64,000 nt of DNA from Actinoallomurus purpureus (GTDB lineage: Bacteria; Actinomycetota; Actinomycetes; Streptosporangiales; Streptosporangiaceae): positions 248,001 through 312,000 of the forward strand of contig NZ_JAMXMY010000007.1 in the NCBI RefSeq assembly GCF_024055795.1, read 5' to 3'. Shown in pieces: positions 18,209 through 61,318 of the stretch. Position 1 is the stretch's first letter. Every line of letters begins with the position of its first letter. The notes under the pieces are model-generated. The model saw only the letters and a list, made by a program, of their open reading frames with translations, ran no database searches and was not told the DNA's origin. Position numbers and translations under genes: made by a program.

Positions 18209-18222
18209 ACCAATCGTTTGGT
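18209..18222. promoter_or_regulatory. KstR2-like operator, site 1
   Basis: ACCAATCGTTTGGT has matching half-sites (ACCAA/TTGGT) and differs at two positions from the mycobacterial KstR2 motif AnCAAGnnCTTGnT. It lies 12 bases before the GTG of the acyl-CoA dehydrogenase, just upstream of a TATCAT -10-like box. Repression by the regulator at 49775 is inferred. Confidence 0.6.
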
Positions 18223-18234
18223 TATCATCCTCCG

Positions 18235-19239
18235 GTGAGCGACGAACTCGACGACCTGCGAGCGACCGTCCGCGCCTTCCTGGCCGAAGCGTGCCCGCCC
18301 ACCGCCGTACGGCGGCTCATGGCCGACCCGGCGGCGCATGACGCGGCGCTGTGGCGGCGGCTCGCCGGCGAACTCGGGCTGACCGGGCTGGCCGTTCCCG
18401 AGGAGCACGGCGGGGCGGGGTGCGGGCTCGGCGAGCTCGCGGTCGTCTGTGAGGAGCTCGGCCGGGCGCTGACCCCCGTCCCGTACCTGGCGACGGCCGT
18501 CCTGGCGGCGCACGCCGTACGCGACGGGCACCTGCTCGCCGGGATCGCCGACGGTTCCCTCATCGCGACCGTCGTCCTCGACGGGGACCTCACGGCGAAC
18601 GGCGATCGCCTGACCGGCACCGCGCCGTACGTCCTCGACGGGCACCTGGCCGACGTGATCGTCTGCGCGGCCGGCGGCCGGGTGTACGCGGTACGGGGCG
18701 CGGACGTCGCGCGGACCCCGTACGTGACGCTCGACCAGACACGGCGGCTGGCCCGCCTGCGGTTCGACCGCACACCGGCCGAGCCGATCGACGGAGACGT
18801 GACCCGCCTGCGCGACATCGCCCTGACCGCGCTCGCCGCAGAGCAGGTGGGCGGCGCGCAGTGGTGCCTGGAGACGGCGGTCGAGTACGCGAAGACGCGG
18901 GTCCAGTTCGGCCGGCCCATCGGCTCCTTCCAGGCGATCAAGCACAAGCTGGCCGACGTGCTGCTGCGCGTCGAGTCGGCGCGTTCGGCCGCGTACGAGG
19001 CCGCGCGGGTCGCCGATCACGAGCCGGAGTCGTTGCCGGTGTACGCCGCGCTCGCGGCGTCGTACTGCGCCGAGGCCCATCTCCACGCGGCGGGCGAGAC
19101 GATCCAGGTCCTCGGCGGCATCGGCGTCACCTGGGAGCACGACGCCCAGCTGCACTTCAAGCGGGCGACCGCGTCCGCGCGCCTGTTCGGCAGCCCGGAG
19201 TCCCACCGCGCCCGGCTGGCCGCGGCCGTGGGGCTCTAG
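18235..19239 (+). CDS. acyl-CoA dehydrogenase, small FadE subunit type (IpdE2/FadE33-like)
   Basis: This 334-residue flavoprotein-type acyl-CoA dehydrogenase is shorter than the usual 380 residues. It has the N-terminal helical domain (GLTGLAVPEEHGGAG), a reduced middle domain and the C-terminal helical domain with TRVQFGRPIGSFQAIKHKLAD and GGIGVTWEHDAQLHFKRA. Short subunits like this often pair with a second FadE as alpha2beta2 enzymes in actinobacterial steroid catabolism. A partner could be the FadE30-like protein at 28243. The GTG at 18235 gives the natural N-terminus SDELDDLRATVRAFL. A KstR2-like operator lies directly upstream. The 3' end is repeated downstream in tandem. Confidence 0.85.
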   Translation: MSDELDDLRATVRAFLAEACPPTAVRRLMADPAAHDAALWRRLAGELGLTGLAVPEEHGGAGCGLGELAVVCEELGRALTPVPYLATAVLAAHAVRDGHLLAGIADGSLIATVVLDGDLTANGDRLTGTAPYVLDGHLADVIVCAAGGRVYAVRGADVARTPYVTLDQTRRLARLRFDRTPAEPIDGDVTRLRDIALTALAAEQVGGAQWCLETAVEYAKTRVQFGRPIGSFQAIKHKLADVLLRVESARSAAYEAARVADHEPESLPVYAALAASYCAEAHLHAAGETIQVLGGIGVTWEHDAQLHFKRATASARLFGSPESHRARLAAAVGL

Positions 19240-19385
19240 CCGCCCGCTGCCCGGGAGCGCCCGGACCCCTCCACCCCACCCGGCCGGCCACGGCCCTGGG
19301 GTTGCTACCGCCCGCTGGTCGGCAGCCCGGAGTCCCACCGCGCCCGGCCGGCCGCAGCCGTGGGGTTGTGGCCGCCGTCCGGCCC
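19188..19385. repeat. three imperfect 66-bp tandem repeats at the dehydrogenase 3' end
   Basis: The last coding bases of the acyl-CoA dehydrogenase and its stop region (unit 1, 19188-19253) recur twice downstream (19254-19319 and 19320-19385). Units 1 and 3 are the closest, sharing CGGCAGCCCGGAGTCCCACC and the following bases. The stop codon in unit 1 ends translation, so units 2 and 3 are non-coding remnants of a tandem duplication. Confidence 0.8.
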
Positions 19386-19475
19386 GGCCTCCGGTCGGCC
19401 CGGACGGCGGTCGCCGGGAATGCGGCCCGGACGCGGCTCGTTGCTCCGAGGAGACTCCCCACGAGGTGCCCCCCA

Positions 19476-20627
19476 GTGATCGACATTTCCCTGACGCCTG
19501 CCCAGACCTCATCGGTGCCGCGCCCGTCGGCGCGGCGCCGGTGGCTGCGCTGGGCGGGGCGCGCGGCCATGTTCGGGGCGATCGGCGTGGCCGCCTGGGC
19601 GTTCCGCGACCAGCTGCCCGACGCCGGAGCCCTGGTGCACGCCGCCGCGCACGCGAACCCCGGCTGGCTGGCCGTCGTGGTGCTCACCCAGCTGGCCTCC
19701 ATGAGCATGTTCACGCGCGTGCAGCGACGGCTGCTGCGGGCGGGCGGAGTCCGGATGTCGCTGCCCAGGGCGCTGCAGATCACGTACGCGGGCAACGCGC
19801 TCTCGACGACGCTCCCGGTGGGTCCGGCGGTCAGCGTGGCGTTCGGCTTTCGTCAGTTCCGCCGCGCCGGAGCCACGGCGCGGTCGGCGACGGCCGTGAT
19901 CGTGCTCGGCGGCGTGGTGATGAACCTCGGCTATGCCGCCGTCGGCCTGACCGCGCTGATCGCCGAACCGAACTCCCGGTCGTTCGCCATCACGGGTCTG
20001 GCGTCCCTGGTGGGCGCGGCGGGCGCGCTCGTCCTGCTCTGGAACTGGAAGCGGGGAGCGGTGAACCGCCTGGCGCTGCGCGCCTTCGGTCCGCTGCTGC
20101 GGCACCGGCTCATGGCTCCGCTCACCGAGATGTGGCAGGGCCGGGGCGCGCTGCGCCTGAGCCCACGCGACTGGGGCGTGCTCGGCCTGATGGCCGTACT
20201 GAACTGGGCGTTCGACATCCTCTCCCTCGCGACCGCCGAGCGCGCGGTCGGCGTGCACACCCCGCTCTACGCCGTCACGCTCGCGTACTTCGCCGCGCAG
20301 GCCGCCGGCAGTGTCCTGCCGCTGCTGCCCGGCGGGCTCGGTGCGATCGAGGCGAGCCTGGCGGCGTCGCTGGTCGCCTTCGGAGCACTCGCCGTCCCGG
20401 CCGGGGCGGCGGTGGCCCTGTACCGGCTCGTGTCCTTCTGGGGCGTCATCGGCGCCGGCTGGCTCGCCTGGCTGGCGGTCAAGGTCGGCGAGGACGACGG
20501 GACACGCCTCCGCCTGCGGAAGACGTTCGGCGACCTGGGAACGTCGCTGTACACCCCGTCGCTCACGATGGTCTGCGCCGCCCCCGCTCCCCCGGTTCCC
20601 GACTCCCCGGAATCCGCCCGGCCCTGA
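19476..20627 (+). CDS. lysylphosphatidylglycerol synthase-type transmembrane protein (UPF0104)
   Basis: A 383-residue polytopic membrane protein of the UPF0104/LPG_synthase_TM family, the flippase-like half of MprF, without the aminoacyl-transferase domain. Eight or so membrane helices are visible, with the family motif LLPGGLGAIEASLAASL near residue 290. The start is GTG at 19476 with GAGGT about nine bases upstream. Substrates of such stand-alone proteins are mostly unknown. It sits between catabolic genes but has no KstR2-like site of its own. Confidence 0.85.
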   Translation: MIDISLTPAQTSSVPRPSARRRWLRWAGRAAMFGAIGVAAWAFRDQLPDAGALVHAAAHANPGWLAVVVLTQLASMSMFTRVQRRLLRAGGVRMSLPRALQITYAGNALSTTLPVGPAVSVAFGFRQFRRAGATARSATAVIVLGGVVMNLGYAAVGLTALIAEPNSRSFAITGLASLVGAAGALVLLWNWKRGAVNRLALRAFGPLLRHRLMAPLTEMWQGRGALRLSPRDWGVLGLMAVLNWAFDILSLATAERAVGVHTPLYAVTLAYFAAQAAGSVLPLLPGGLGAIEASLAASLVAFGALAVPAGAAVALYRLVSFWGVIGAGWLAWLAVKVGEDDGTRLRLRKTFGDLGTSLYTPSLTMVCAAPAPPVPDSPESARP

Positions 20628-20698
20628 CCTGGCCTTGGGGCCGCGGAATCCGTCCGGCCCACTCGACACGTCGCACCCGCGTGACCGCTTCTCACGGC

Positions 20699-20745
20699 TT
20701 GTTGCCGTACGATCCCGCTGCTACGCTTCCCAAGCGAGCGCTTGG
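20699..20745 (+). promoter_or_regulatory. promoter with KstR2-like operator, site 2
   Basis: A -35 box TTGTTG (20699-20704) and a -10 box TACGCT (20722-20727) are 17 bases apart. The palindrome CCAAGCGAGCGCTTGG (20730-20745) begins two bases after the -10. It contains AGCGAGCGCTTGGT, one mismatch from the KstR2 motif. A repressor here would cover the transcription start of the luciferase-like gene. Confidence 0.75.
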
Positions 20746-20777
20746 TCATTTTGGAGCAGCACACTGCCGGAGGCGTG

Positions 20778-21842
20778 ATGTCCCTACGGGTCAGCGTGGG
20801 TTACGAGCTCGAGGTGCGCGGGCGCACCCGCGAGGTCGAGCGGCGGGCCTTCGAGAACGTCATCGACCAGGTCGTTCTGGCCGACCGCCTCGGCTACGAC
20901 ACGGCATGGTTCGTGGAGCACCACTTCACGCGCGGGTTCTCCCACTCGTCCGCGCCCGACCTCGTCCTCGCCGCCTGCTCGCAGCGGACCGAGCGCATCC
21001 ACCTCGGCCTGGGCGTCGTGCTCCTGCCGTTCCAGCATCCCGTCCGCACCGCCGAACGAGTCGCGACCCTCGACGTCCTCAGCGGCGGGCGGGTGGAGTT
21101 CGGCACCGGGCGCGGGGCGTCCCCGCTGGAGTACCAGGCGTTCCAGCGTCCCTTCGAGCAGTCCCGGCAGATCTGGGAGGACACCCTCGATGCGGTGCTG
21201 GCGATCTGGAACGCCGACGGCGAGCCGGTCACGCGGTCGAGCGAGTTCTTCGAGGTGCCGGGCGTCGCGGTCTACCCGCGCCCGGCGCAGGAGCCCCATC
21301 CGCCGGTCTGGGTCGCCTCCACCTCGCTCGACGGCTACCTCGCGGCGGCGCGCAAGGGCTACAACCTGCTCGGCATGACGATGTTGAAGGGCCTCGACGA
21401 CGTCGCCGAGGACATCGCCAAGTACAAGGAGTGCCTGGCGAGCAGTGGGTTCGACCCGGAGACCCGGCGTGTCGCGCTGATGATCCCCTGGCACGTCGCG
21501 CCGTCGAAGGACGAGGCGATCTCCAGGGCCGCCGACGCGATCCTGTGGTACATCCGCCGCCAGGTGAACCTCGTCACTCCCCCGGACTACTACGACGCCC
21601 GGCACGCGACGCATCGGGTGCTGGGCCAGCTCGCGGCCGGCCTGCCGCCCGAGGAGGCCATGGAGACGCTGCGCGAGCACCACATGGTCGTCGTGGACGA
21701 CGTCGAGGGCTCCCGTAAGGCCGTCGAGCGCATCCAGGCCGCCGGCGCCACCGATCTCATCCTCCAGGCCCAGGTCGGCGGCCTGGCGAACGAGCACGTG
21801 ACCGGATCGATGCGGCTGTTCATGGACGAGGTGATGGGTTGA
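20778..21842 (+). CDS. luciferase-like monooxygenase (LLM family)
   Basis: A 354-residue TIM-barrel flavin- or F420-dependent oxidoreductase of the bacterial luciferase superfamily. Typical motifs are WFVEHHFTRGFSHSSAPDL, then ERIHLGLGVVLLPFQHPVR and LSGGRVEFGTGRG. The ATG at 20778 follows GGAGG at four bases. The gene begins a probable three-gene unit with the two downstream adenylate-forming genes, and it has a KstR2-like operator over its promoter. A role in oxygenating or oxidising a steroid-derived or branched acyl-CoA is inference. The nearby flavin reductase at 27621 could supply reduced flavin. Confidence 0.88.
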   Translation: MSLRVSVGYELEVRGRTREVERRAFENVIDQVVLADRLGYDTAWFVEHHFTRGFSHSSAPDLVLAACSQRTERIHLGLGVVLLPFQHPVRTAERVATLDVLSGGRVEFGTGRGASPLEYQAFQRPFEQSRQIWEDTLDAVLAIWNADGEPVTRSSEFFEVPGVAVYPRPAQEPHPPVWVASTSLDGYLAAARKGYNLLGMTMLKGLDDVAEDIAKYKECLASSGFDPETRRVALMIPWHVAPSKDEAISRAADAILWYIRRQVNLVTPPDYYDARHATHRVLGQLAAGLPPEEAMETLREHHMVVVDDVEGSRKAVERIQAAGATDLILQAQVGGLANEHVTGSMRLFMDEVMG

Positions 21843-21856
21843 CCGAAGGAGAGCGC

Positions 21857-22933
21857 ATGACCTGGAGCACCCGAGGCGCCCTCGCGACTCCCCGCGACGC
21901 GGCGGGGCTGCTGCTCGTCTCCCCCGAGGCCGACGTGGTGGTGCCGCTGACCGCCGGGGACCGCGCGGCCGCGCTGGACATCGCGACGACGACGCTGCGC
22001 GCCGCGGGCGTCGGCCCGTCCGACCGGGTCGTGGTCGCGCTGGGCAACGACGGCGAGGCGACCGGCACGCTGATCGCGCAGGCGTGCGCGGAGATCGCCC
22101 AGGCCGCGGCCGCTCCGGGGCCCCGGGGGCGGCTGCGCCTGCACCACGCGCTGGAGGCCGTACGGGCCACCACCCTCGTCGCGACGCCCACGGGGGCGAT
22201 GGACCTGCTCGCCCGGCTGCACCTGGAGTTCCTCCTCGACCCGCTCGACCTCGGCCTGCGCCGGGTCCTGCTCACCGGCGAGATCCCGTCGCCGGGCACC
22301 GCCGGACAGCTCGCGTCCGAATTCGAGGCGGAGGTGGGCGAGCTGTACGCCGACCCGTACTTCGGGCTCCCGTCGGCGTACCGGTCCCCGCGCGACGCCG
22401 CGTACACCCCGGCCCGCGACGGCCTGCTGGGCCTCGCGCCGATCGGCAAGGACGTGCTGCTGGAGCCGCCGTACCCGCCCGGAACGGCGGAGATCGTGGT
22501 CACTCCCGCCTGGCACTCCACGCTGGCCGGCACGACGCTGCGCACCGGGCAGGTCGTGCGCCTGACCGAGGGCGCGGGGATTCCCGCTCCGGAGCACACC
22601 GTGGGCGAGCACATCCTCCTGCGAGGGCGGTGGCTGTCGATCCCGCGCGTGGCCGAGGCCCTGTCCCGGATCGACGGCATCGCCCACTGGGACCTGCGCG
22701 CCGCCCGCGAGGGCACGCTCGACGCCGCCGCGCTGCACGTCACGTTCAACCGCGCGACGCTCGTGAAGAGCCCGATGTGGCGGTCGCGCATCCACCAGGC
22801 CCTCGTCGCGATCACCCCGGTGACCATCGAGGTCGTCGTCGAGGACGACGTCGCGGAGCAGGCCCGGCCGGGTTCGGTCACCGATCTGCGCGGCCACCAT
22901 CTCGGCCGTGACCGGTCAGCGGTCGCGGAGTGA
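21857..22933 (+). CDS. divergent PaaK-like adenylate-forming protein
   Basis: A 358-residue protein resembling phenylacetate-CoA ligase in its later parts. AEIVVTPAWHSTLAGTTL and RTGQVVRLTEG mirror the PaaK core strand and RTGD motif, and GRWLSIPRVAEALSRIDG mirrors the C-terminal domain. The ATP-binding loop of PaaK is not recognisable in the N-terminal half, and the protein is shorter than the usual 430 residues. It may be a non-adenylating paralogue or a very divergent ligase. The ATG at 21857 follows AAGGAG and lies 14 bases past the upstream stop, so the gene is in the same operon as the luciferase-like gene. Confidence 0.6.
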   Translation: MTWSTRGALATPRDAAGLLLVSPEADVVVPLTAGDRAAALDIATTTLRAAGVGPSDRVVVALGNDGEATGTLIAQACAEIAQAAAAPGPRGRLRLHHALEAVRATTLVATPTGAMDLLARLHLEFLLDPLDLGLRRVLLTGEIPSPGTAGQLASEFEAEVGELYADPYFGLPSAYRSPRDAAYTPARDGLLGLAPIGKDVLLEPPYPPGTAEIVVTPAWHSTLAGTTLRTGQVVRLTEGAGIPAPEHTVGEHILLRGRWLSIPRVAEALSRIDGIAHWDLRAAREGTLDAAALHVTFNRATLVKSPMWRSRIHQALVAITPVTIEVVVEDDVAEQARPGSVTDLRGHHLGRDRSAVAE

Positions 22934-22963
22934 CCCGGCCCGTTTTCCGAGCGGAGGCAGGTC

Positions 22964-24556
22964 ATGAAACCGGTGCCGGACTGGGGGACGATCCCGCGGA
23001 TGCTGCGCGATCAGGCGGTGCGCCATCCGGATGACGTGGTCGTCGTGGACGGCGACACGACGCTGACGCTGCGCGCGTTGCGGGAGGAGGCCGCGCGCGT
23101 GGCCCGGGGCCTGATCGCGCTCGGTGTCCAGCGCGGCGACCGGGTCGCCGTGTGGGCGCCGAACTCCGCGGCCTGGGCGGTCATCGCGTACGGCGTCTGG
23201 GACGCCGGGGCGATCATCATGCCGCTGTCGACGCGGTTCCGCGGGATCGAGGCCGCCGCCATGCTGCGCAGGACCGGCGCGCGGGCGCTCTTCGTCGACG
23301 AGGGGTTCCTGGGCTTCTCCTACCTCGGCGCACTGCAGGAGACCTGCGGCGGGCCGGTCGGGGGCCGCCCGTTCGGCGACCTGCCGGAGCTGCGGCAAGT
23401 CGTCACCCTGGCGGGGACCGGAGCCCGGCCGCCGGCGCTCTCGTACGAGGACCTCCTCGCGGGCGGCGAGGAGGTGGCGGACGCCGAGGAGCGCGCGCTG
23501 GCGGTACGCCCGGACGACCTGGCCGAGGTCATGGCCACGTCCGGCACGACCGGCGCGCCGAAGGGCGTCATGCTGCCCCACGCGCAGCTGCTGCGCGGCT
23601 ACTGGGACTGGGCGTCGATCGTCACGCTGCGCGCGGACGACCGTTATCCGATCATCGCGCCGTTCTCCCACGGATTCGGGATCAACGCCGGGCTGCTGGC
23701 CTGCGTCCTCAAACGCGCGACGATGATGCCGATCTCGGTGTTCGCGCCCGACGCCCTGATGGACATGATCGAGCGGGACCGGATCAGCGTCCTGGCCGGT
23801 CCGCCGACGCTGTTCCACCGGATCCTGGAGGAGCTGGACGGCCGTGACGTGTCCTCGCTGCGGGTGGCGATCTGCGGGGCGGCGGCGGTGCCGCCGGAGC
23901 TGATCCGGCGGCTGGTCGAGCGCGTCGGCCTGGACCGGATGATCAACGCGTACGGCCTGATGGAGGGCACCGTCGTGTCGATGACGCGGGCCGACGACCC
24001 GGTCGAGGTGATCGCCGCCACCACCGGGCGACCGGTGCCCGGCGTGACCGTGCGCATCGTGGACGACGACGGGAAGGACCTGCCGGCCGGCGAACGCGGG
24101 GAGATCCTCGTCGGCGGGTACGGCGTCATGCGCGGCTACTGGGACGATCCGGAGCGCACGGCGGAGGCCGTGGACGCCGACGGCCGGCTGCACACGGGCG
24201 ACATCGGCACGCTCGACGAACGGGGCGACCTCGCGATCGTCGACCGGAAGAAGGACATGTTCATCGTCGGTGGCTTCAACGCCTACCCCGCCGAGATCGA
24301 GGCGCTGCTGCTCCACCATCCGGCCATCGCCCAGGCCGCCGTGGTCGCCGTGCCCGACGACACGTTGGGCGAGGTCGGCTGGGCGTTCGTCGTCCCCGCC
24401 GCCCCGGTCGAGCCGGCCGAGATCATCGACTGGGCGCGCGAGCACATGTCCAACTACAAGGTCCCCCGGCGCGTCACGCTCGTCGACGCGCTCCCCGCCA
24501 ACGTCAACGGCAAGGTCGACAAGCAGGCCCTCCGCGCCCGCACCGCCGCCCGCTGA
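22964..24556 (+). CDS. acyl-CoA synthetase, FadD3-like
   Basis: A 530-residue AMP-forming ligase with all expected motifs: the phosphate loop TSGTTGAPKGVMLPH, the YGLMEGT core, HTGDIG, DRKKDMFIVGGFN and the C-terminal catalytic lysine in NVNGKVDKQAL. Overall it resembles mycobacterial FadD3, which activates HIP, the steroid C/D-ring fragment, to its CoA thioester. Orthology is inferred from recall of that sequence and from the neighbouring FadE30-like and KstR2-like genes. The ATG at 22964 follows GGAGG. It is the last gene of the 20778-24556 unit. Confidence 0.85.
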   Translation: MKPVPDWGTIPRMLRDQAVRHPDDVVVVDGDTTLTLRALREEAARVARGLIALGVQRGDRVAVWAPNSAAWAVIAYGVWDAGAIIMPLSTRFRGIEAAAMLRRTGARALFVDEGFLGFSYLGALQETCGGPVGGRPFGDLPELRQVVTLAGTGARPPALSYEDLLAGGEEVADAEERALAVRPDDLAEVMATSGTTGAPKGVMLPHAQLLRGYWDWASIVTLRADDRYPIIAPFSHGFGINAGLLACVLKRATMMPISVFAPDALMDMIERDRISVLAGPPTLFHRILEELDGRDVSSLRVAICGAAAVPPELIRRLVERVGLDRMINAYGLMEGTVVSMTRADDPVEVIAATTGRPVPGVTVRIVDDDGKDLPAGERGEILVGGYGVMRGYWDDPERTAEAVDADGRLHTGDIGTLDERGDLAIVDRKKDMFIVGGFNAYPAEIEALLLHHPAIAQAAVVAVPDDTLGEVGWAFVVPAAPVEPAEIIDWAREHMSNYKVPRRVTLVDALPANVNGKVDKQALRARTAAR

Positions 24557-24703
24557 GGCCGCTGCCGCGTGCCAATTCCATCAATCCGGGCATCGAGACC
24601 GCCTCACTGTGCCGGAGCAGCGCGCATCACCGCGGAACCGGGCGGACCGAGCGTAGGCGCGGCGCATGCCGGTGGGAAGACCGGCCCGGGACCGCGACGG
24701 CGC

Positions 24704-25798: not shown

Positions 25799-26212
25799 TC
25801 ATCGTGGCCGCCACCGGACGAGCGTCAGGTCTTCGTCCACGTCGGTGAAGACCGCCTCGACCGGCATGCCCGCCGTGACCTCGGCCGGGTCACCCTCGGT
25901 GAGATCACCGTACATGAAAAGATCTTCGGCATCGTCGAGCCGGACGTGCAACACGGCGTACGGCACCTCGTCGGCGAAGGCCCGCATGAAGACCTGGTGG
26001 CAGACGATCCAGCTCGCGACCCGCCCGGTGCCCTCGATCGGGACCCAGCCGCTCTCCCGTGCCCGGCACCGGCCGCAGATGGCGCGCGGCGGGAAGCGCA
26101 GCGTGCCGCAGCCGCCGCACTTCTGGACCAGCAGCTCGTGCCGCCGGACGGCCTCCCACCACGGCACGGAGTCCCGGTCGACCTGCGGCCTCGGCCGCTC
26201 GGCGAGGCTCAT
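25799..26212 (-). CDS. DUF35 OB-fold acyl-CoA-binding partner protein
   Basis: A 137-residue protein with an N-terminal rubredoxin-like zinc ribbon (CGGCGTLRFPPRAICGRC) followed by an OB-fold. Such DUF35 proteins pair with thiolase-fold lipid-transfer proteins, as in the ChsH2-DUF35/Ltp2 retro-aldolase of steroid side-chain breakdown. The ATG at 26212 overlaps the stop of the thiolase gene by ATGA, matching the known obligate pairing. It probably forms a complex with the product of 26209-27366. Confidence 0.9.
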   Translation of the reverse strand: MSLAERPRPQVDRDSVPWWEAVRRHELLVQKCGGCGTLRFPPRAICGRCRARESGWVPIEGTGRVASWIVCHQVFMRAFADEVPYAVLHVRLDDAEDLFMYGDLTEGDPAEVTAGMPVEAVFTDVDEDLTLVRWRPR

Positions 26213-27366
26213 GCGTCCGTCCGGAGGATCAGCGCCGACGTGCCGGCGAGGACGTAGCCGGGCTGGGCCGTCGACAGCGCCACCTCGGCGCCGCTCACCT
26301 GCCGGTCGCCGGCCGTGCCGCGCAGCTGCGCGACGGCCTCGGCGATGTGGTTGATGCCGTGCACGTATCCCTCCGAGAGGAAGCCGCCGTGGGTGTTGAC
26401 GGGCAGCGGGCCGTCGAGGCTGGTCGCGCCGGAGGCGGCGTACGGGCCGCCCTCCCCCTTGGCGCAGAAGCCGTAGTCCTCCAATTGGACGAGGACCGAG
26501 TAGGTGAAGCAGTCGTACAGCTCGGCGACGTCGATGTCCTCGGGCCCGACCCCCGCCATCGCGTACAGGCGGGGGGCGATCCGCGCGGCCTCGGAGACGG
26601 TGAAGTCGCCGCCCTGACCGGAGAAGAAGCTGTCGCCGCCGCCCCAGACCGCACCGGAGATCAGGACCGGCGGGGTGGCCAGGTCCCGGGCGCGCTCGGC
26701 CGACGTGACGACGACCGCGCAGGCCCCGTCGGTCTCCAGGCAGCAGTCGAGCAGCCGGAGGGGCTCGGCGATCCACCGGGAGGCCAGGTAGTCGTCGAGC
26801 GTGATCGGGTCGCGTTTCAGGGCGCGGGGGTTCTTCACGGCGTTGGCGCGCTGGCCGACCGCGATGTGGCCGAGCTGCTCGTGCGTCGTGCCGTACTTGA
26901 TCATGTGGGCACGGGTGGCCATCGCGAACTGCTGCGGCGGCGCGAAGTAGCCGTACGGCGCCTGGTACTGCGCGTCGAAGACCGGGGCGGCGCCGCGGCC
27001 GGTGCCGCCCATGCGGAACTCCGAGCGCGCGTTGATCGCGCGGTAGCAGACGACGGTGCGGGCGACGCCGGTGGCGACCGCCATGGCCGCCTGCCCGATC
27101 ACCGCGTGCGAGACGCTGCCCCCGCCGAACTGGTCGAGGTACCAGCTCACCTCGGGGACCCCGAGCGCCGGGGCGACCACCCACGGCGGCGTCGAGTCGC
27201 CGACACGGTGGGTCGCGAGCGCGTCGACGTCGTCGACGGCCAGCCCCGCGTCGTCCAGCGCGGCGAGGATCGCGTCGATCGCGAGGGTGAGCGTGGAGAC
27301 GCCGGAGTCCTTGCTGAACGGCGTGTACCCGACCCCGGCGATCGCCGCCCGATCCCGCAACCCCAT
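26209..27366 (-). CDS. thiolase-fold lipid-transfer protein (Ltp2-like aldolase or SCP-x thiolase)
   Basis: A 385-residue thiolase-superfamily protein of the non-specific lipid-transfer type. The family segments CCLETDGACAVVVTSAERA, AELYDCFTYSVLVQLEDYGFC and THGGFLSEGYVHGINHIAEAV are seen. The coupled DUF35 gene argues for a retro-aldolase such as Ltp2 rather than a classical thiolase. In that group conserved tyrosines replace the catalytic cysteines. The ATG at 27366 has a KstR2-like operator 21 bases upstream, and the gene is divergent from the flavin reductase. Substrate is unknown but is expected to be a beta-hydroxy or beta-keto acyl-CoA. Confidence 0.88.
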   Translation of the reverse strand: MGLRDRAAIAGVGYTPFSKDSGVSTLTLAIDAILAALDDAGLAVDDVDALATHRVGDSTPPWVVAPALGVPEVSWYLDQFGGGSVSHAVIGQAAMAVATGVARTVVCYRAINARSEFRMGGTGRGAAPVFDAQYQAPYGYFAPPQQFAMATRAHMIKYGTTHEQLGHIAVGQRANAVKNPRALKRDPITLDDYLASRWIAEPLRLLDCCLETDGACAVVVTSAERARDLATPPVLISGAVWGGGDSFFSGQGGDFTVSEAARIAPRLYAMAGVGPEDIDVAELYDCFTYSVLVQLEDYGFCAKGEGGPYAASGATSLDGPLPVNTHGGFLSEGYVHGINHIAEAVAQLRGTAGDRQVSGAEVALSTAQPGYVLAGTSALILRTDA

Positions 27367-27386
27367 GAGCCGCCCTTCGTCGTTTG

Positions 27387-27400
27387 AACAAGCGCTCGGT
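27387..27400. promoter_or_regulatory. KstR2-like operator, site 3
   Basis: AACAAGCGCTCGGT departs at one position from AnCAAGnnCTTGnT. It sits between the ATG of the thiolase-fold gene and a TAGGGT -10-like box on the minus strand. Confidence 0.65.
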
Positions 27401-27554: not shown

Positions 27555-27600
27555 TTGACACCCCCGGACGGGGCCGCCTATCGTCCAAGCAAGCGCTTGG
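27555..27600 (+). promoter_or_regulatory. promoter with KstR2-like operator, site 4
   Basis: A consensus -35 TTGACA (27555-27560) is followed after 18 bases by TATCGT (27579-27584). The palindrome CCAAGCAAGCGCTTGG (27585-27600) begins at once after the -10. It has the perfect core CAAGCGCTTG. It should control the flavin reductase and the following dehydrogenase. Confidence 0.78.
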
Positions 27601-27620
27601 CTAAGAGAAGGGAACCGGTC

Positions 27621-28235
27621 ATGCCCGATGGCGCGACCGCCGCCACGTCGATCCCCCGAGGCTCGGCTGCGCGATCCTCCGGCCAGAACACGCCACGGCG
27701 CGCACCCCACTCGCCCAACGGAACGCCACGTCCGGGCGCGACCGAGCAGGTCACCGACATCGACACGATGCGTTTTCGCAACATCCTCGGCCGCTTCGCC
27801 ACCGGCGTGGTCGCCATCACCGCGATCGATCCGGAGACGGGCCGGCCCACCGGCCTGGCCGCCAACTCCTTCACCTCGGTGTCGCTGGACCCGGCGCTCA
27901 TCTCCTTCTGCGTCGCGCACACCAGCTCCACGTGGCCCCGGCTGCGCGACGCCGGCCGTCACTGCGTCAACATCCTCTCCGAGCCGCAGCGCGAGGTCTG
28001 CCTGCAGTTGGCCACGAAGGGCGGGGACAAGTTCGCCGGCCTGGAGTGGACCAAGTCCCCCGGCGGCAGCCCCGTGATCGACGGCGCGCTCGCCTGGCTG
28101 GAGTGCTCCGTCGAGGCGGAGTACGTCGCCGGCGACCACGTCATCGTCGTGGCCCAGGTCCACCATCTCGACAAACACCACGACGGCGATCCCCTCGTCT
28201 TCTACAAGGGCTCCTACGGCCGGTTCGACGGCTGA
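27621..28235 (+). CDS. flavin reductase domain protein (HsaB-like)
   Basis: A 204-residue protein with a flavin-reductase-like FMN-binding split barrel. The core opens with MRFRNILGRFATGVVAITA and continues with GLAANSFTSVSLDPALISFCVA, the flavin-binding stretch of two-component monooxygenase reductases. About 50 low-complexity residues precede it. The ATG at 27621 follows GAAGGGA, though the N-terminal extension makes an internal start possible. Steroid degraders use such reductases (HsaB) to feed flavin-dependent monooxygenases. Here the luciferase-like enzymes are candidate partners. Confidence 0.85.
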   Translation: MPDGATAATSIPRGSAARSSGQNTPRRAPHSPNGTPRPGATEQVTDIDTMRFRNILGRFATGVVAITAIDPETGRPTGLAANSFTSVSLDPALISFCVAHTSSTWPRLRDAGRHCVNILSEPQREVCLQLATKGGDKFAGLEWTKSPGGSPVIDGALAWLECSVEAEYVAGDHVIVVAQVHHLDKHHDGDPLVFYKGSYGRFDG

Positions 28236-28242
28236 ACCGGTG

Positions 28243-29394
28243 ATGGACACGGGCTTCCGGGCCGAGGTGCGCGGCTGGCTCGAGGCGCACCTCACCGGTG
28301 AGTTCGCCGGGGCTCGCGGGCTCGGGGGCCCCGGACGCGAGCACGAGGGGTTCGACCTGCGCCGCGCCTGGGAACGCCGGCTCGGCGAGGCGGGCTGGAC
28401 CTGCCTGGGCTGGCCCAAGGCGTACGGCGGGCGCGACGCGACGCTGGAACAGCAGGTCGTGTTCCACGAGGAGTACGCCCGCGCGAACGCGCCCCACCGC
28501 GTCGGCCACATCGGCGAGGGCCTCATCGGACCGACGATCATCGACTTCGGTACCGAGGAGCAACGGCGGCGATTCCTGCCGCCGATCCAGCGCGGCGACG
28601 AGCTGTGGTGCCAGGGCTACTCCGAACCGGGGGCGGGATCGGACCTTGCGAACGTGCGGACGCGGGCGGAGCCACACGCCGGCGAATGGGTGATCACCGG
28701 GCAGAAGGTCTGGACCTCCCTCGCGCACCTCTCGGACTGGTGCTTCGTCCTCTGCCGTACGGAGCCGGGTTCCCGGAGGCACCACGGCCTGTCGTACCTG
28801 CTCGTGCCGATGCGCCAGGCCGGCGTCGAGGTACGGCCGATCGTCCAGCTGACCGGCACCAGCGAGTTCAACGAGGTGTTCTTCGACGGCGCCCGTACCG
28901 ACGAGGCGAACATCCTCGGCGCACCCGGCGACGGCTGGCGCGTCGCCCTGGCGACCCTCGGGTACGAACGCGGCGCCTCGACGCTCGGTCAGCAGATCGG
29001 GTTCCGGCGGGAGTTCGAGCAGGTCGTCGCCGCGGCCCGGCGCAGCGGCGCGGCGGCGGATCCCGTGCTGCGCGACCGGCTCGTCCAGTCGTGGATCGAA
29101 CTGGAGATCATGCGCCTGAACGCACTGCGCACCATGTCGTCCCTGGCTGCCGGCGAGCCCGGGCCCGAGGTGTCGATCGCCAAGCTGTACTGGTCGGAGT
29201 GGCACCGGCGGCTCGGCGAGCTCGCCGTGGCGGCCCTCGGCGACGAGGTCCTGGTCGCCGACGCCGGACCGTACGAGCTGTCGGAGCTGCAGCGGCTCTA
29301 CCTGTTCAGCCGCGCCGACACCATCTATGCCGGCTCCAGCGAGATCCAGCGCAACATCATCGCCGAGCGCACTCTCGGCCTGCCGCGAATCTGA
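28243..29394 (+). CDS. acyl-CoA dehydrogenase, FadE30/IpdE1-like
   Basis: This 383-residue acyl-CoA dehydrogenase closely resembles mycobacterial FadE30 as I recall it. Shared segments include the opening GLGGPGREHE, CQGYSEPGAGSDLA, GQKVWTSLAHLS and YAGSSEIQRNIIAERTLGLP. FadE30 (IpdE1) takes part in breakdown of the steroid C/D-ring acid HIP as one half of a heteromeric enzyme. The ATG at 28243 lies seven bases after the flavin reductase stop, so the two are one operon under the KstR2-like operator at 27585. A terminator hairpin follows. Assignment beyond the family rests on sequence likeness only. Confidence 0.9.
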   Translation: MDTGFRAEVRGWLEAHLTGEFAGARGLGGPGREHEGFDLRRAWERRLGEAGWTCLGWPKAYGGRDATLEQQVVFHEEYARANAPHRVGHIGEGLIGPTIIDFGTEEQRRRFLPPIQRGDELWCQGYSEPGAGSDLANVRTRAEPHAGEWVITGQKVWTSLAHLSDWCFVLCRTEPGSRRHHGLSYLLVPMRQAGVEVRPIVQLTGTSEFNEVFFDGARTDEANILGAPGDGWRVALATLGYERGASTLGQQIGFRREFEQVVAAARRSGAAADPVLRDRLVQSWIELEIMRLNALRTMSSLAAGEPGPEVSIAKLYWSEWHRRLGELAVAALGDEVLVADAGPYELSELQRLYLFSRADTIYAGSSEIQRNIIAERTLGLPRI

Positions 29395-49739: not shown

Positions 49740-49768
49740 AACAAGCGGTTGGGCGGACACGCCATAAT
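49740..49768 (+). promoter_or_regulatory. KstR2-like operator (site 5) and promoter of the regulator
   Basis: AACAAGCGGTTGGG (49740-49753) differs at two positions from AnCAAGnnCTTGnT. A -10-like CATAAT (49763-49768) follows. The GTG start lies six bases after the -10, so the transcript may be leaderless. The site suggests self-control of the regulator. Confidence 0.65.
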
Positions 49769-50599: not shown

Positions 50600-50617
50600 G
50601 GTCTACACCGCCCCCGC

Positions 50618-53029: not shown

Positions 53030-53044
53030 TTCGGGGGGCTCGAC

Positions 53045-54490: not shown

Positions 54491-54495
54491 TCCGC

Positions 54496-55590
54496 TCAGC
54501 GGACCAGGATGGCGGCGCTGCCGTAGCTGCCGCCGAAGCCGGTGCACAGGGCGACCTCGGCGCCGGGGACCTGGTTCACTCCGTCGCCGCGCAGCTGCCG
54601 CACCGCCTCGGCGACGTTGTTGAGGCCGTGGACGTACCCCTCCGACAGCAGCCCGCCGTGCGGGTTCACGGTGGCGAGTCCCTGGCGGAGCGCGTCGGAC
54701 AGGTCCGCCCGCGCGCAGAGCCCGAAGTCCTCCAGTTGGCGCGGGACCAGCCAGGAGTAGGCGTCGTACAGCAGGGCCACGTCGACGTCCGCTGGTGTCA
54801 TGCCCGCGGCCGCGTAGAGCGGACCGGCGACATGGGAGGAGAAGATCCTCGTCACGTCACCGGTCCTGTCCATGGCCGAGGCACCCGGCCCCCCGCCGCG
54901 GACGACGGCGTGGACGCGCGGGGCGCCCGGCGCCCGGTCGGCGGAGGTGACGACCAGGGCGCAGGCGCCGTCCGTCTCCTGACAGCAGTCGGCGCGGCGC
55001 AGAGGCGAGGCCACGGGCGGGCTCGCCCAGTAGTCCTCCTGCTCGCGGCGCAGCGCCCGCGGGTTGGCCGCGGCGTGGGCGCGGGAACCGCGGACGACCG
55101 CGCACAGGTCCTCCTCGGTGAGACCGGTGTCGTGCAGGTAGCGCTGGGCGGCGAGGGCGAACTGCAGCACCGGTCCGGCCAGGCCGTACGGATGGGTGAA
55201 CTGCTCCTCGACCCCCTCCCCCAGCTTCAGGGAGAGGGTGTTCATCCGCCGTCCGGACCGGCCGTTGAGGGCCCGGTAGACGAGGACGGTCCGGGCCAGG
55301 CCCGCGTCGATGAGCATGGCGGCGTCGCCGAGGATCGACGCGGACTGCGTGCCGCCGCCGTAGATCTCGTTGTGCCAGCCGAGCTCGATCCGCAGTTCCC
55401 GGGCGACGTGGATCACGGGGGCGGAGTCGCCGAGGTGGTAGCTGAGGATCGCGTCCGGCTGCTGCCCCGCCTCCTCGATCGCCCGGCGCGCGGCCTCGAC
55501 CGCCAGCTGCAGTTCGGTGCGGCCGGAGCTCCGGGACAGGTCGGTCATGCCGATCCCGGCGATCGCCGCCTTTCCGGAGAAACCCTGCAT
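54496..55590 (-). CDS. thiolase-fold lipid-transfer protein, intact copy
   Basis: A 364-residue thiolase-superfamily protein of the SCP-x/Ltp type. It has CCQETDGACALVVTSADRA, VALLYDAYSWLVPRQLEDFGLC, PHGGLLSEGYVHGLNNVAEAV and the end TGFGGSYGSAAILVR. Unlike the 26209 gene it has no DUF35 partner next to it. The ATG is at 55590. A KstR2-like operator lies 80 bp upstream. A truncated copy with the same promoter occurs at 59178-59629. The catalytic-type cysteine position (YDCF in the paralogue) is YDAY here, so it is unlikely to be a classical thiolase. Confidence 0.85.
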   Translation of the reverse strand: MQGFSGKAAIAGIGMTDLSRSSGRTELQLAVEAARRAIEEAGQQPDAILSYHLGDSAPVIHVARELRIELGWHNEIYGGGTQSASILGDAAMLIDAGLARTVLVYRALNGRSGRRMNTLSLKLGEGVEEQFTHPYGLAGPVLQFALAAQRYLHDTGLTEEDLCAVVRGSRAHAAANPRALRREQEDYWASPPVASPLRRADCCQETDGACALVVTSADRAPGAPRVHAVVRGGGPGASAMDRTGDVTRIFSSHVAGPLYAAAGMTPADVDVALLYDAYSWLVPRQLEDFGLCARADLSDALRQGLATVNPHGGLLSEGYVHGLNNVAEAVRQLRGDGVNQVPGAEVALCTGFGGSYGSAAILVR

Positions 55591-55605
55591 GGCACCTCAC
55601 CCGAT

Positions 55606-55721
55606 GACGGCCGGGCGGCAGGGACCGCCCTGGCGGGAGCGACCCGGCCTGGTGCCGCCAGTCTGTCATAACAATCGCTTGCTCGGCAGCTGGCCCGATC
55701 CGGCTCCGGAGACGATCTTGA
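55606..55721. repeat. duplicated thiolase promoter, copy 1, with KstR2-like operator (site 6)
   Basis: These 116 bases recur at 59514-59629 in the same orientation with about six differences by eye and no length change. They hold the operator AACAATCGCTTGCT (55670-55683), one mismatch from the KstR2 motif on the minus strand. Likeness stops sharply at GATCTTGA, exactly where the MMPL fragment begins. Confidence 0.88.
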
Positions 55722-56183
55722 TTCGGCCGGCCCACCGCCGGGCGTTTCGGCGTTCACCACCGCGGCGCCGCCGAGGGCGAGCGTCAGCCCGTCCCCGGAC
55801 CCCGCGCGCACGTCGGAGATCATCGCCGCGACGTCCTGCTTCGGCACGTCGCCGGACCCCCTGTCGAGCTGGATCGGGGCGAAGGCCGTCCGGCGGTTCG
55901 GCGACACCTGACCCGGCGCCCGGTACGGCGAGCTCACGGATGTGACATGCCGGGCGTGGGCGAGTTCGCCGAGCACCTTCTCCACCCGGGGCCGTACGGC
56001 GTCGATCCCGCCGTCGGCGCGGATGGCGAGGGTGAGCGTGTCGCCTTCCTGGCTGGGGAAGTGCTTCTTGATCAGATCCTGGGCCTGGGAGGACTCGGCC
56101 TTGCCTCCGGAGAAGTCGTTGTCGGCCGGTGCGGCGAAGCTGAAACCGACGGCGATGACGGCCGCGGCGCCGACGATCCAGGC
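55722..56183 (-). pseudogene. MMPL transporter fragment
   Basis: About 154 codons match residues 27-180 of the intact MMPL protein at 50618-52756, from AWIVGAAAVIAVGFSF through DTLTLAIRADGGIDAVR to NAETPGGGPAE. Both ends are abrupt. Upstream is histidine-kinase sequence in another frame, and downstream is the thiolase promoter. No start or stop of its own is present. This is a recombination remnant, not a functional gene. Confidence 0.9.
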
Positions 56184-56239
56184 CGGCAGGCAGGCGGACA
56201 CCGTGAACCCTCCGGCCGGCCCCCGCCGCGTGGCGAACC

Positions 56240-56878: not shown

Positions 56879-57082
56879 GCGCGAACCGTACGCCGCTCGA
56901 CCGCTACTGGGTATGGTGCCGGCCCGATCCTCGACCCCCTGCGGGCTTGCCGCGAACCCGAGATCACCTTTTCGCGTGACGCAGCATGCCCGGATGACCA
57001 TAAAGTGCATGCCCGCCACGGTGACCGAAAGCGACGTTACACTGGGTCGCCCAAGGTCGGGATTCATCAGTCGGAGGTCGTC

Positions 57083-59157: not shown

Positions 59158-59177
59158 GGGACGACTGTAGTACCGCG

Positions 59178-59513
59178 TCAGCGGGTGAGGATGGCGGCGC
59201 TGCCGTAGGAGCCGCCGAAGCCGGTGCAGAGGGCGACCTCGGCTCCGGCGACCTGGTTCACCCCGTCGCCGCGCAGCTGGCGCACCGCCTCGCCGCGCAG
59301 CTGGCGCACCGCCTCGGCGACGTTGTTGAGGCCGTGGACGTAGCCCTCCGACAGCAGCCCGCCGTGCGGGTTGACGGTGCCGAGGCCGTGGTGCAGCGTC
59401 TCGGCCAGGTCAGATCGGCCGCACAGCCCGAAGTCCTCCAGCTGCCGGGGGACCAGCCAGGAGTACGCGTCGTAGAGCAGGGCCACGTCGATGTCGGCGG
59501 GCGTCATGCCCGC
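59178..59513 (-). pseudogene. truncated thiolase copy with internal deletion
   Basis: This copy keeps only the last third of the gene at 54496-55590, from GMTPADIDVALLYDAYSWL to GSYGSAAILTR. It is joined directly to the duplicated promoter region. About 800 bp, including the start codon and two thirds of the coding region, are lost. A 24-bp tandem duplication (59268-59291 and 59292-59315) inserts eight extra residues, giving EAVRQLRGEAVRQLRG. A 126-codon frame opening at an ATG in the former promoter could still be read, but a functional product is improbable. Confidence 0.88.
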
Positions 59514-59629
59514 GACGGCCGGGCGGCAGGGGCCGCGCTGGCGGGGGCGACCCGGCATGGTGCCGCCAGTCTGTCATAACAATCGCTTGCTCGGCAGCTG
59601 GCCCGATCCGGCCCCGGAAACGATCTTGA
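59514..59629. repeat. duplicated thiolase promoter, copy 2, with KstR2-like operator (site 7)
   Basis: This is the partner of the 116-bp repeat at 55606-55721. The operator AACAATCGCTTGCT (59578-59591) is unchanged. It now stands before the broken thiolase copy and 57 bases from the start of the divergent methyltransferase gene, so it might affect that gene instead. Confidence 0.88.
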
Positions 59630-59647
59630 CAGGGCATACTGACTCCC

Positions 59648-60442
59648 GTGCCAAGCGACAATGGGACTCCTCCCGCCTTCGACGTGAACATCCCGAGTTC
59701 GGCGCGGATGTATGACTACGCGCTCGGAGGCAAGGACAATTACGCCGTCGACCGGGAGACCGCGGAGCGCATCTTCACCGCGTTCCCCGCCCTGCGTGAG
59801 CTGGTGGTGGCCAATCGCGGCTTCCTGACCCGGGCGGTGCGTTTCATCGCCGACCAGGGCGTACGCCAGTTCGTCGACCTGGGGGCCGGAATCCCCACCT
59901 CGCCGAACGTTCACGAGATCGCCCGCGAGGTCCACCCGGACGCCCGCGTCGTCTACGTGGACCACGATCCGATCGTCGCCGCCCACAGCAGGGCGCTGCG
60001 CGCGGACGGGGAGGGGGTCGCCGTCGTCGAGGCGGACATCCGCGAACCCGATGCGGTTCTGTCCCGGATCGAGGACGAGGGGCTCATCGACTTCGCCGAG
60101 CCGGTCGGTGTCCTCTTCATCGACGTGCTGCACTTCGTCACCGATGACGAGGACCCGGCGGCGATCGTCGCACGCTTCGGGGATCGCCTCGCACCGGGCA
60201 GTCACCTGGCACTCTCCGCCGCGTGCAGTGACGGGGTCGACCCCGAGAGCGCCGAGAAGGTCACCGCGGCCTACAAGAACGCCACGACCCCGCTGGTCCC
60301 GCGCACCCGTGACCAGATCGAACGCTTCCTCCACGGTTTCGAGCCCGTCTCGCCGGGGCTGGTCAACATGGCCGTCTGGCGCGCCGCAGGACGGGACATC
60401 CCCGGCGGACTGGCGGGTGTCGCCCGCAAACCCGCCCCATGA
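59648..60442 (+). CDS. SAM-dependent methyltransferase (Methyltransf_19 / DUF574 type)
   Basis: A 264-residue protein of a family abundant in actinomycetes. The opening NIPSSARMYDYALGGKDNYAVDRETAE is diagnostic. The SAM-binding motif is FVDLGAGIPTSPNVHEIA near residue 78, followed by VVYVDHDPIV. The target is unknown; members are scattered in regulatory and secondary-metabolite contexts. The GTG at 59648 lies eight bases after a CATACT -10-like box, so the transcript may be leaderless. Confidence 0.9.
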   Translation: MPSDNGTPPAFDVNIPSSARMYDYALGGKDNYAVDRETAERIFTAFPALRELVVANRGFLTRAVRFIADQGVRQFVDLGAGIPTSPNVHEIAREVHPDARVVYVDHDPIVAAHSRALRADGEGVAVVEADIREPDAVLSRIEDEGLIDFAEPVGVLFIDVLHFVTDDEDPAAIVARFGDRLAPGSHLALSAACSDGVDPESAEKVTAAYKNATTPLVPRTRDQIERFLHGFEPVSPGLVNMAVWRAAGRDIPGGLAGVARKPAP

Positions 60443-60497
60443 GCCGGCCCCGCGAGCCCGCTGTTCGGCGGGCTGGCGGTCGTCTCGATCCCCGCAG

Positions 60498-60531
60498 GCC
60501 CCTCCCGGCGTTCGGCGGGCGCGGGAGGGGC
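60498..60531. terminator. bidirectional hairpin terminator
   Basis: A perfect 10-bp stem (GCCCCTCCCG and complement) with a 14-base loop lies between the convergent methyltransferase and Dabb genes. Confidence 0.8.
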
Positions 60532-60548
60532 TCCGGACGCTCAGCGCG

Positions 60549-60848
60549 TCACAGGTCGTACTGCACCGCGGCGCGTTCGGCGAGGATCGGCTTGATGTAC
60601 TCGTCGATGACCGCGCGGTGCACCGGATGGTCGCGATAGACGACATAGGCGTCGCGGTCGGCGAAGTCGGCGACCACGGCGAAGTCGAAGTTGCCGTCGT
60701 TCAGCCCGGCGTCGCCGCCCACGTGGTACGCCGCGATCTCGGGGATGGCGCCGGGCAGGGCGTTCAGCCGGCCCACCACCTCCCGCCTCCGCTCGTCCGT
60801 CGCGCTCTCGTTCCACCGGAAAACCACCACGTGCCGGAATCCGGCCAT
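60549..60848 (-). CDS. Dabb-family stress-responsive alpha/beta-barrel protein
   Basis: A 99-residue dimeric alpha+beta barrel protein. FRHVVVFRWNESATDE at the N-terminus and FDFAVVADFADRDAYVVYRDHPVHRAV are the classic Dabb pattern. Members act as small stress proteins or as cyclases and degradative enzymes. Nothing here shows the substrate. The ATG at 60848 follows GGAGGGG. Confidence 0.9.
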   Translation of the reverse strand: MAGFRHVVVFRWNESATDERRREVVGRLNALPGAIPEIAAYHVGGDAGLNDGNFDFAVVADFADRDAYVVYRDHPVHRAVIDEYIKPILAERAAVQYDL

Positions 60849-60957
60849 GTCCCCTCCTCGGTCGATGCTTCGCTGCAGACGATACGAGAAGGGCCCCGGC
60901 GGTCACCGGGCGCCTCCCAACGCCGCGCTCTCGCTCCGCGGCTCTCTGCGGGCCGGT

Positions 60958-61152
60958 TCATCCCGCCAGGTGCGCCGCCGTGCGTTCGGCCAGGTCGAAG
61001 GCCTTCCGCCGGACGCGCGAGGGCGGCCGGGCTTTCGCCCGGCCGCCCGTCCCACTGGGCCGGTCAGGCCCAGGACACGCCGCCCATCGCAGGCCTCCTT
61101 CCCCCACGCCGATCAGGGTCGCCGCTCCCCCGAGAATGACGATCTCTGACAT
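60958..61152 (-). CDS. possible 64-residue small protein
   Basis: An ATG at 61152 opens a frame beginning MSEIVILGGAATLIGVGEGG and ending in a basic region. TTGCCC and TAGCCT, 16 bases apart, precede it and would give a leaderless transcript. There is no ribosome site, and a strong hairpin lies inside the frame. No family is recognised, so the gene may not be real. The rest of the 524-bp gap between 60848 and 61373 holds no other gene besides the hairpin and operator listed. Confidence 0.25.
   Translation of the reverse strand: MSEIVILGGAATLIGVGEGGLRWAACPGPDRPSGTGGRAKARPPSRVRRKAFDLAERTAAHLAG
61021..61048. terminator. strong GC-rich hairpin
   Basis: A perfect 12-bp stem (GGGCGGCCGGGC and complement) encloses a TTTC loop. 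It resembles actinomycete intrinsic terminators without a T-tract. Which transcript it ends is unclear. Confidence 0.6.
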
Positions 61153-61293
61153 AGAGGCTAGGGAAACGATCACTGCGGGCAAATACGTAGTTTGACATAT
61201 TTTGTAGGTATCACCGCCTGTATGCGGCAATTCACGGCAGGTATTCCATCTCCCCGACCTCTTCCAGGACTCCATCCCGGGCGACATGCCTGC

Positions 61294-61318
61294 TACGCTA
61301 CCAAGCGAGCGCTTGGTA
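61294..61318 (+). promoter_or_regulatory. promoter -10 with KstR2-like operator, site 8
   Basis: A TACGCT -10 box (61294-61299) is followed by the nearly perfect palindrome TACCAAGCGAGCGCTTGGTA (61299-61318). The layout repeats that of 20722-20745, including the preceding CTGC. The contained 14-mer AGCGAGCGCTTGGT has one mismatch to the KstR2 motif. Confidence 0.78.

Follow-up and report, generated by a model that had tools for sequence, protein, structure and literature searches.

A KstR2-type regulon with luciferase-like monooxygenases in Actinoallomurus purpureus, apparently divided between two regulator paralogues

A stretch of 64,000 bp from Actinoallomurus purpureus (contig NZ_JAMXMY010000007.1, positions 248,001 to 312,000, here termed the window) carries a gene for a KstR2-like repressor at position 49775 and eight palindromes of the KstR2 type dispersed over 43 kb. 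The question raised by this locus is whether the palindromes define one regulon for the degradation of steroid rings C and D, the pathway of methylhexahydroindanedione propanoate (HIP), and how luciferase-like monooxygenases, which are not known members of it, and a wide spacing of sites fit into it. The sequences suggest, with a probability of roughly 0.8, that the window represents the ancestral-type half of a KstR2-type ring C/D regulon that is split with a second KstR2-like paralogue. The window regulator and its relatives are termed W-type, the paralogue is termed C-type, and the corresponding operators are of W class and C class.

By its similarities, the 49775 product is of the KstR2 type, as the initial annotation had it. 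The top PDB matches are 2ibd (E 5.2e-49), labelled in the database as a possible transcriptional regulator and which we take to be KstR2 of Rhodococcus jostii, and the KstR2 entries 4w1u (1.3e-46) and 4w97 (1.5e-46); the next match, 3dcf, stands at 1.6e-20. Identity is 43% to both PDB segments (2ibd and KstR2) and also to the second KstR2-like protein of the host. The recognition helix GILSGSLYHHF is identical in the 49775 product and the KstR2 PDB chain, and AGILSGSLYHHF is present in 76 of 80 named homologues, with a one-residue change in three and one unmatched. Residues R162, W166 and R170 of KstR2, presumably the contacts to HIP-coenzyme A (HIP-CoA), are R, W and R in all 25 aligned W-type rows. 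W-type proteins form one side of a 95/90 branch in the regulator tree and are found in Thermomonosporaceae, Streptosporangiaceae and one Nocardiopsis; the closest named homologue among the matches listed is from Actinoallomurus soli (89%). Two other identities, KstR (NF033703, 28.5 bits, cut-off 280) and the SACE_7040 family (NF050111, 70 bits, cut-off 250), were rejected.

Site starts and mismatches are given in the 14-mer register of the published KstR2 consensus AnCAAGnnCTTGnT. The eight palindromes proposed earlier at zero to two mismatches are all present, but none is perfect, each having one or two (Table 1). The positions 18209, 27387, 49740, 55670 and 59578 stand, and 20730, 27585 and 61299 are corrected to 20733, 27588 and 61304. 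At up to two mismatches the loose consensus matches the window 28 times, with 5.5 matches expected from shuffles, and consensus alone is weak evidence because 20 of the 28 are at other places. Applied to the whole genome it lacked specificity, with 90 forward matches compared with 199 for its reversed control, and a symmetric 20 bp matrix trained on seven window sites was used instead. With this matrix all eight sites score 20.5 to 27.4, whereas no other place in the window exceeds 15.4. According to our own codon-usage gene caller every site is intergenic, and the distance to a gene start ranges from 19 to 173 bp; these distances are approximate since some calls near the sites are overlong. 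When training sites are left out one at a time, the near-identical 20733 and 61304 jointly, each of the seven outranks all window non-sites, 49740 narrowly (16.8 vs 16.5). A first-order Markov null of 60 × 64 kb (3.84 Mb) yields four matches of at least 17 and a top score of 18.7. Three M. tuberculosis KstR2 sites, positive in electrophoretic mobility shift assays according to the available portion of PMC3068626, score 25.8, 21.6 and 18.5 on the window matrix without retraining.

The sites recur in relatives. Upstream of the regulator gene, among named loci that are the best 80 of at least 579 confirmed stretches, a score of at least 12 is reached in 68, of at least 15 in 60 and of at least 17 in 52; as a control, two of 79 downstream stretches reach 12. 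A palindrome before the regulator gene itself, claimed earlier and scoring 20.5 in the window, is thus a recurrent feature. Within L106-L185, 29 loci have exactly two hits of at least 15 upstream of the regulator, spaced 42-62 bp apart, and the window retains one. Homologues of the other proteins were searched for in 120 genomes including the host, with up to 30 loci scanned for each. A W-class site precedes luciferase-like monooxygenase 1 (LLM1) in 18 of 18 cases and the Ltp2-like protein in 16 of 19 rows, those lacking it being G015 (74% identity) and copies in G035 and G011 (60 and 59%); most of the homologous divergent regions between Ltp2-like and flavin reductase/FadE30-like genes have two sites. 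Hits of at least 12 are found at 16 of 30 IpdE2-like loci, every one at 57% identity or more. Four further counts come from the named loci, which were selected for their proximity to the regulator: a hit of at least 17 lies upstream of LLM2 in 13/13 and one of at least 15 upstream of the second thiolase in 13/18, while a neighbouring MMPL gene used as control has a site in 0/29 and a Dabb gene in 3/50. The initial proposal of a KstR2-like regulon is upheld, with fadD3-, fadE30- and ipdE2-like genes among the targets, published KstR2 sites recognised and sites kept in relatives. In the genomes searched, LLM1 is present only where echA20 is also found (18/18), and 17 of these 18 genomes have the Ltp2-like gene as well; echA20 occurs without LLM1 in 28 genomes and without a KstR2-like hit in six. 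As a separate observation, in many Actinomadura loci (e.g. L134:19077, L138:16173) a gene for a 253-aa short-chain dehydrogenase/reductase (SDR), some kb away from the regulator, is preceded at about 45 bp by a W-class site (TTGACCAAGCGTTCGCTAGG).

The second KstR2-like gene of the host lies at C33:208-220 kb with homologues of FadA6, IpdF, FadE30-like and short dehydrogenase, IpdC, IpdB, IpdA and EchA20; several of these names were assigned from gene order and similarity, IpdA and IpdB being of the CoA-transferase family. Two promoters there carry ACCAAACA(G/T)TTGTTAGA, and CCAAACANTTGTTA at up to one mismatch is found at those two places only within 9.25 Mb. The host departs from the canonical single-cluster arrangement: its ipd genes are at C33 under the C class and the regulator 49775 is elsewhere. 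C-type genes, defined by at least 64% identity to the C33 paralogue, are found in 24 of the 120 genomes, every one with echA20. Thirty loci out of the 46 genomes with an echA20 match were scanned upstream. The C class is seen in 21 of 21 genomes with a C-type gene and the W class in eight of nine without one, the W-type gene having been checked in seven of these nine and G026 and G036 being assigned by percent identity; operator class at echA20 tracks regulator class in 29 of 30. A C-class site is also found at 19 of 24 C-type loci (regulator and ∼1.5 kb on either side). In the protein alignment, position 44 is S in 25/25 W-type rows vs G or A in 24/24 C-type rows, position 49 is H vs Y, and position 170 is R vs S, T, G or N, in the same rows and again without overlap. 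The helix changes are candidates and not proof, because eleven further columns differ almost cleanly too. The EchA20 tree intermixes both groups, with about four to five changes of regulator label. Most likely the C-type paralogue controls the ipd genes via the changed operator, and the regulon would thus be split.

Gene order was mapped in four relatives (G065, G010, G058 and G034), none with a C-type gene. In all four the W-type gene lies opposite fadA6 with two W-class sites between, and ipdF is directly 3′ of FadE30. Within ∼29 to 62 kb, each has echA20-ipdA-ipdB-ipdC, the Ltp2-like gene facing FadE30-ipdF, LLM1-PaaK-like-FadD3, the IpdE2-like gene and the W-type gene; among these relatives DUF35 is uncalled in G058 and the flavin reductase in G034. 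The region of G065 and of G058 borders homologues of window genes 13941-16632, which we take to be rimP/nusA, and in G034 it extends to a homologue of window gene 16180; the sequence covered for G010 stops short of that flank. Since these neighbours also adjoin the genes at 18-29 kb of the window, the window resembles the relatives' region minus the ipd half and with unrelated genes lying between. The scatter over 43 kb among unrelated genes, described in the initial annotation, is real in the window. It appears to be secondary, however, since the genes are together in four relatives; most simply, the wide spacing would be an eroded form of a region kept together in several relatives.

In the most likely scheme, the 49775 protein would bind CAAGCGCTTG-type palindromes near promoters and repress its own gene, together with the operons for the FadD3-type ligase, the FadE30/IpdE2-type dehydrogenases, SCP2-thiolase/DUF35, the flavin reductase and two luciferase-like monooxygenases. 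FadD3 would make HIP-CoA, and an acyl-CoA such as HIP-CoA would release the repressor, an analogy drawn from KstR2, for which the available parts of PMC9782250 and PMC7807495 give HIP-CoA as inducer. The C-type paralogue, with altered recognition-helix residues, would control echA20-ipdABC and ipdF/fadE30 through the TCTAACAAAYGTTTGGTGGA-class operator. In evolutionary terms, it is likely that KstR2 was duplicated, its operator diverged and the ring C/D regulon was divided, the luciferase-like monooxygenases being kept in the ancestral-type half. The direction of this change is inferred, as are the reactions of the luciferase-like enzymes.

Alternatives to a split ring C/D regulon differ in how far the data bear on them. 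That the palindromes are chance matches agrees with the 20 further places that fit the loose consensus; this reading can be given next to no weight given the matrix gap, the null, the conserved footprints and their negative controls, and it is refuted by the sites kept upstream of homologues. A different acyl-CoA pathway under 49775, for instance terpenoid or branched-acid catabolism with LLM2, a ligase and a thiolase, the sites on HIP-type genes having been recruited later, would account for LLM2 and thiolase sites that recur across many Actinomadura loci. It would also fit the finding that of 53 genomes carrying a KstR2-like hit, 13, e.g. G003, G011 and G012, have no close echA20, their KstR2-like genes not being C-type. 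These KstR2-like genes imply that the regulator is used otherwise there, and that HIP-CoA may not be the effector in all genomes. The other pathway is nonetheless improbable: the closest solved relatives of the 49775 product are KstR2-type, the W-type gene shares a region with echA20-ipdABC and faces fadA6 across W sites in all four mapped relatives, W-class sites precede echA20 in eight of nine genomes without C-type, and LLM1 is found only alongside echA20.

More weight, although it is still considered unlikely, is due to the possibility that both paralogues bind both operator classes and govern one overlapping regulon. The two classes have the core CAA..TTG in common, the W matrix gives C-class sites scores of 8.9-22.1, and the C-type locus L199 also has a W-class site of 23.2; some cross-binding is therefore likely and the split may not be clean. 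Set against this are the 29 of 30 genomes in which operator class varies with regulator class, the two recognition-helix positions that differ without overlap, and a C matrix that peaks at 7.7 in the window, this matrix being narrow and derived from near-identical sites. Several further observations weigh against a divided ring C/D regulon. The echA20-ipdABC genes of the host have no W operator, and G034, without C-type, shows no clear echA20 site. On the strongly supported EchA20 branches only a single label change is required, and few events may therefore underlie the co-variation. Fourteen of the 30 IpdE2-like loci are without a site, including four at 57-58% identity (G044, G072, G092 and G055). 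Among the regulator homologues, 12 of 80 have no upstream match of at least 12, one downstream control stretch scored 20.1, and when well-placed starts only are counted a hit of at least 15 precedes 50 of 62.

Table 1. Features of the window and candidate sites elsewhere in the genome. Operator rows give the matrix score and mismatches to AnCAAGnnCTTGnT.
Feature	Position	Strand	Evidence
Operator before IpdE2-like gene	18209..18222	+	matrix 26.7; 2 mismatches
IpdE2-like acyl-CoA dehydrogenase	18235..19239	+	NF050027 IpdE2 261 bits, cut-off 450; best PDB Tcur3481, 6wy8
Operator before LLM1, inside CCAAGCGAGCGCTTGG	20733..20746	+	matrix 23.0; 1 mismatch
Luciferase-like monooxygenase 1 (LLM1)	20778..21842	+	PF00296 E 2.2e-55; best NCBIfam TIGR04020 147.5 bits, cut-off 244
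358-aa protein with PaaK-like (adenylate-forming) fold	21857..22933	+	between LLM1 and fadD3; AlphaFold2 model, Foldseek
FadD3-type acyl-CoA ligase	22964..24556	+	NF005801 602 bits, cut-off 657
DUF35/ChsH2-type OB-fold partner	25799..26212	-	PF01796, PF12172
SCP2-thiolase/Ltp2-like protein	26209..27366	-	PRK07855 406 bits, cut-off 469; best PDB 6ok1, lipid-transfer protein
Operator 28 bp from Ltp2-like gene	27387..27400	+	matrix 27.4; 1 mismatch
Second operator of divergent region, flavin reductase/FadE30-like side	27588..27601	+	matrix 23.9; 1 mismatch
Flavin reductase (HsaB-like)	27768..28235	+	PF01613; NF045630 176 bits, cut-off 230
FadE30-like acyl-CoA dehydrogenase	28243..29394	+	best PDB Tcur3483, 6wy9/6wy8
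Operator before regulator (predicted autoregulation)	49740..49753	+	matrix 20.5; 2 mismatches
KstR2-type TetR repressor (W-type), 225 aa	49775..50452	+	PDB similarity, recognition helix, tree
Second SCP2-thiolase-type protein	54496..55590	-	PF22691; PRK07855 302 bits, cut-off 469
Operator before second thiolase	55670..55683	+	matrix 21.5; 1 mismatch
Thiolase remnant	59178..59507	-	82% identity to 54492-54808
Copy of 55670 operator, without intact thiolase	59578..59591	+	inside 116-bp copy 95% identical to 55606-55721; 1 mismatch
Operator before LLM2	61304..61317	+	matrix 20.5; 1 mismatch
Luciferase-like monooxygenase 2 (LLM2)	61373..62431	+	PF00296 E 1.4e-82; PDB 7bip, bacterial luciferase 1brl
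AMP-binding acyl-CoA ligase 3′ of LLM2, extends past window end	62525..64000	+	PF00501, PF13193
Candidate site	C22:291670 (L039:9671)		352 bp before mce operon: ATPase, permease, Mce4_CUP1 protein
Candidate site	C2:229976		49 bp before P450-SDR-P450 set located after steroid 3-ketoacyl-CoA thiolase gene
Candidate site	C20:32491		before steroid-22-oyl-CoA synthetase-like ligase (673 bits, cut-off 900)
Candidate sites	C33:53235 and 45633		before F420-type luciferase-like gene and 3beta-hydroxysteroid dehydrogenase/F420 fusion
Candidate site	C25:9884		near hydrolase-like frame and two luciferase-like genes
Candidate site	C48:189816		before metallo-hydrolase

The ligase at 22964 is likely a HIP-CoA synthetase, as judged from its family score; the second-best NF005801 score in the host genome is 359.5 bits. 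The model of the 358-aa protein has a mean pLDDT of 86.5, and its best Foldseek match is PaaK2 (2y4o, TM 0.74-0.76 on the query). LLM1 (PF00296) and the flavin reductase (PF01613), each with W operators upstream, display a two-component pattern, which suggests an oxygenase dependent on reduced flavin mononucleotide (FMNH2).

At 54-64 kb, the segment 59173-59629 is a partial duplicate of the thiolase locus at 54.5-55.7 kb, in which a promoter copy is fused to a gene fragment and the operator is retained; no other part of the thiolase gene was matched at the remnant locus. The intact gene nearest to the 59578 site, at a distance of 123 bp, is the 244-aa frame that starts at 59708. The earlier statement that the sites precede dehydrogenase, luciferase-like, thiolase-fold/DUF35, flavin reductase-FadE30 and thiolase genes and the regulator gene itself holds for seven, and 59578 faces the thiolase remnant. 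A second duplication is seen between 52235-52705 and 55728-56196 (84.5% identity), which places a copy of part of the MMPL gene next to the promoter of the second thiolase.

Elsewhere in the genome, a narrower pattern drawn from the eight window places, and not exhaustive, yields 61 strand hits, and its reversed control 49; the window places themselves account for 11 of the 61, and most others are probably chance. Eight scored places outside the window reach at least 21.7 and are treated as candidates (Table 1), except C6:232656, a probable chance hit within a called gene. The mce operon at C22:291670 possibly represents steroid uptake under the 49775 regulator. Lower-scoring candidates are C22:499179 (19.9), C33:65579 (19.8), C52:207795 (19.1), C23:75404 (17.4) and C25:2204 (16.9). 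A separate operon at C2:212-220 kb (L333:12450-19735), with Ltp2 (681 bits, cut-off 469), a ChsH2-type gene, two dehydrogenases and a ligase, lies beside a KstR-like gene (139 bits, cut-off 280). It is a probable steroid side-chain operon, and together with the KstR-like gene it suggests a steroid-degrading lifestyle.

In Mycobacterium and Rhodococcus the KstR2 regulon comprises 15 genes with three promoter regions near kstR2, as given in the available text of Kendall 2010 (PMC3068626). The host resembles these in the TetR repressor, the palindrome AnCAAGnnCTTGnT, autoregulation (predicted here) and fadD3- and fadE30-type targets. It differs in having sites over 43 kb and probably beyond, in its luciferase-like, flavin reductase, SCP2-thiolase/DUF35 and PaaK-like targets, and in ipd genes that lie beside a paralogue with a different operator class. 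Dispersal of a KstR2 regulon has in itself a precedent, since the sections available of PMC7807495 predict KstR2 sites in 29 operons of Nocardioides simplex, with targets in more than one cluster; one kstR2 is named there, whereas the host has two KstR2-like genes. Homologues of FadD3, FadE30, IpdF, IpdC, EchA20, IpdAB and FadA6 of the HIP pathway, as set out in the accessible part of Crowe 2017 (PMC5380842), are present in the host genome. The term luciferase is absent from the main text of both PMC7807495 and PMC5380842, and LLM class from that of the former. In Thermomonospora curvata, a related actinobacterium, ring C/D genes form a cluster separate from the cholate genes (Bergstrand 2016, PMC4810484), and its dehydrogenases Tcur3481 and Tcur3483 are, among solved structures, the pair closest to the two dehydrogenases of the window; in the portion available, that account mentions no luciferase-like members and no pair of KstR2 genes. 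Within the open-licence literature, no paper was found on KstR2 together with luciferase-like enzymes, or on KstR and steroid catabolism in Actinomadura, and KstR2 appears in no row listed from broader searches. The comparison of sequences points to a genuine, conserved KstR2-type regulon, in which the luciferase-like module and the division between two paralogues would be new.

A more far-reaching proposal, tentative and somewhat doubtful at present, is that of a Streptosporangiales-type KstR2 regulon with an oxygen-dependent ring C/D route that is absent from mycobacteria. The route would consist of the luciferase-like monooxygenase, flavin reductase, PaaK-like protein and SCP2-thiolase/DUF35. 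A duplicated KstR2 with a re-tuned helix would run the hydrolytic ipd half via a matched operator change that tracks it across genera.

Shared operators and co-occurrence tie luciferase-like oxygenases to steroid ring C/D catabolism. The two regulator types would also provide a natural test case for concerted divergence between a duplicated repressor and its operator, with two helix positions and a few operator positions changing jointly across genera.

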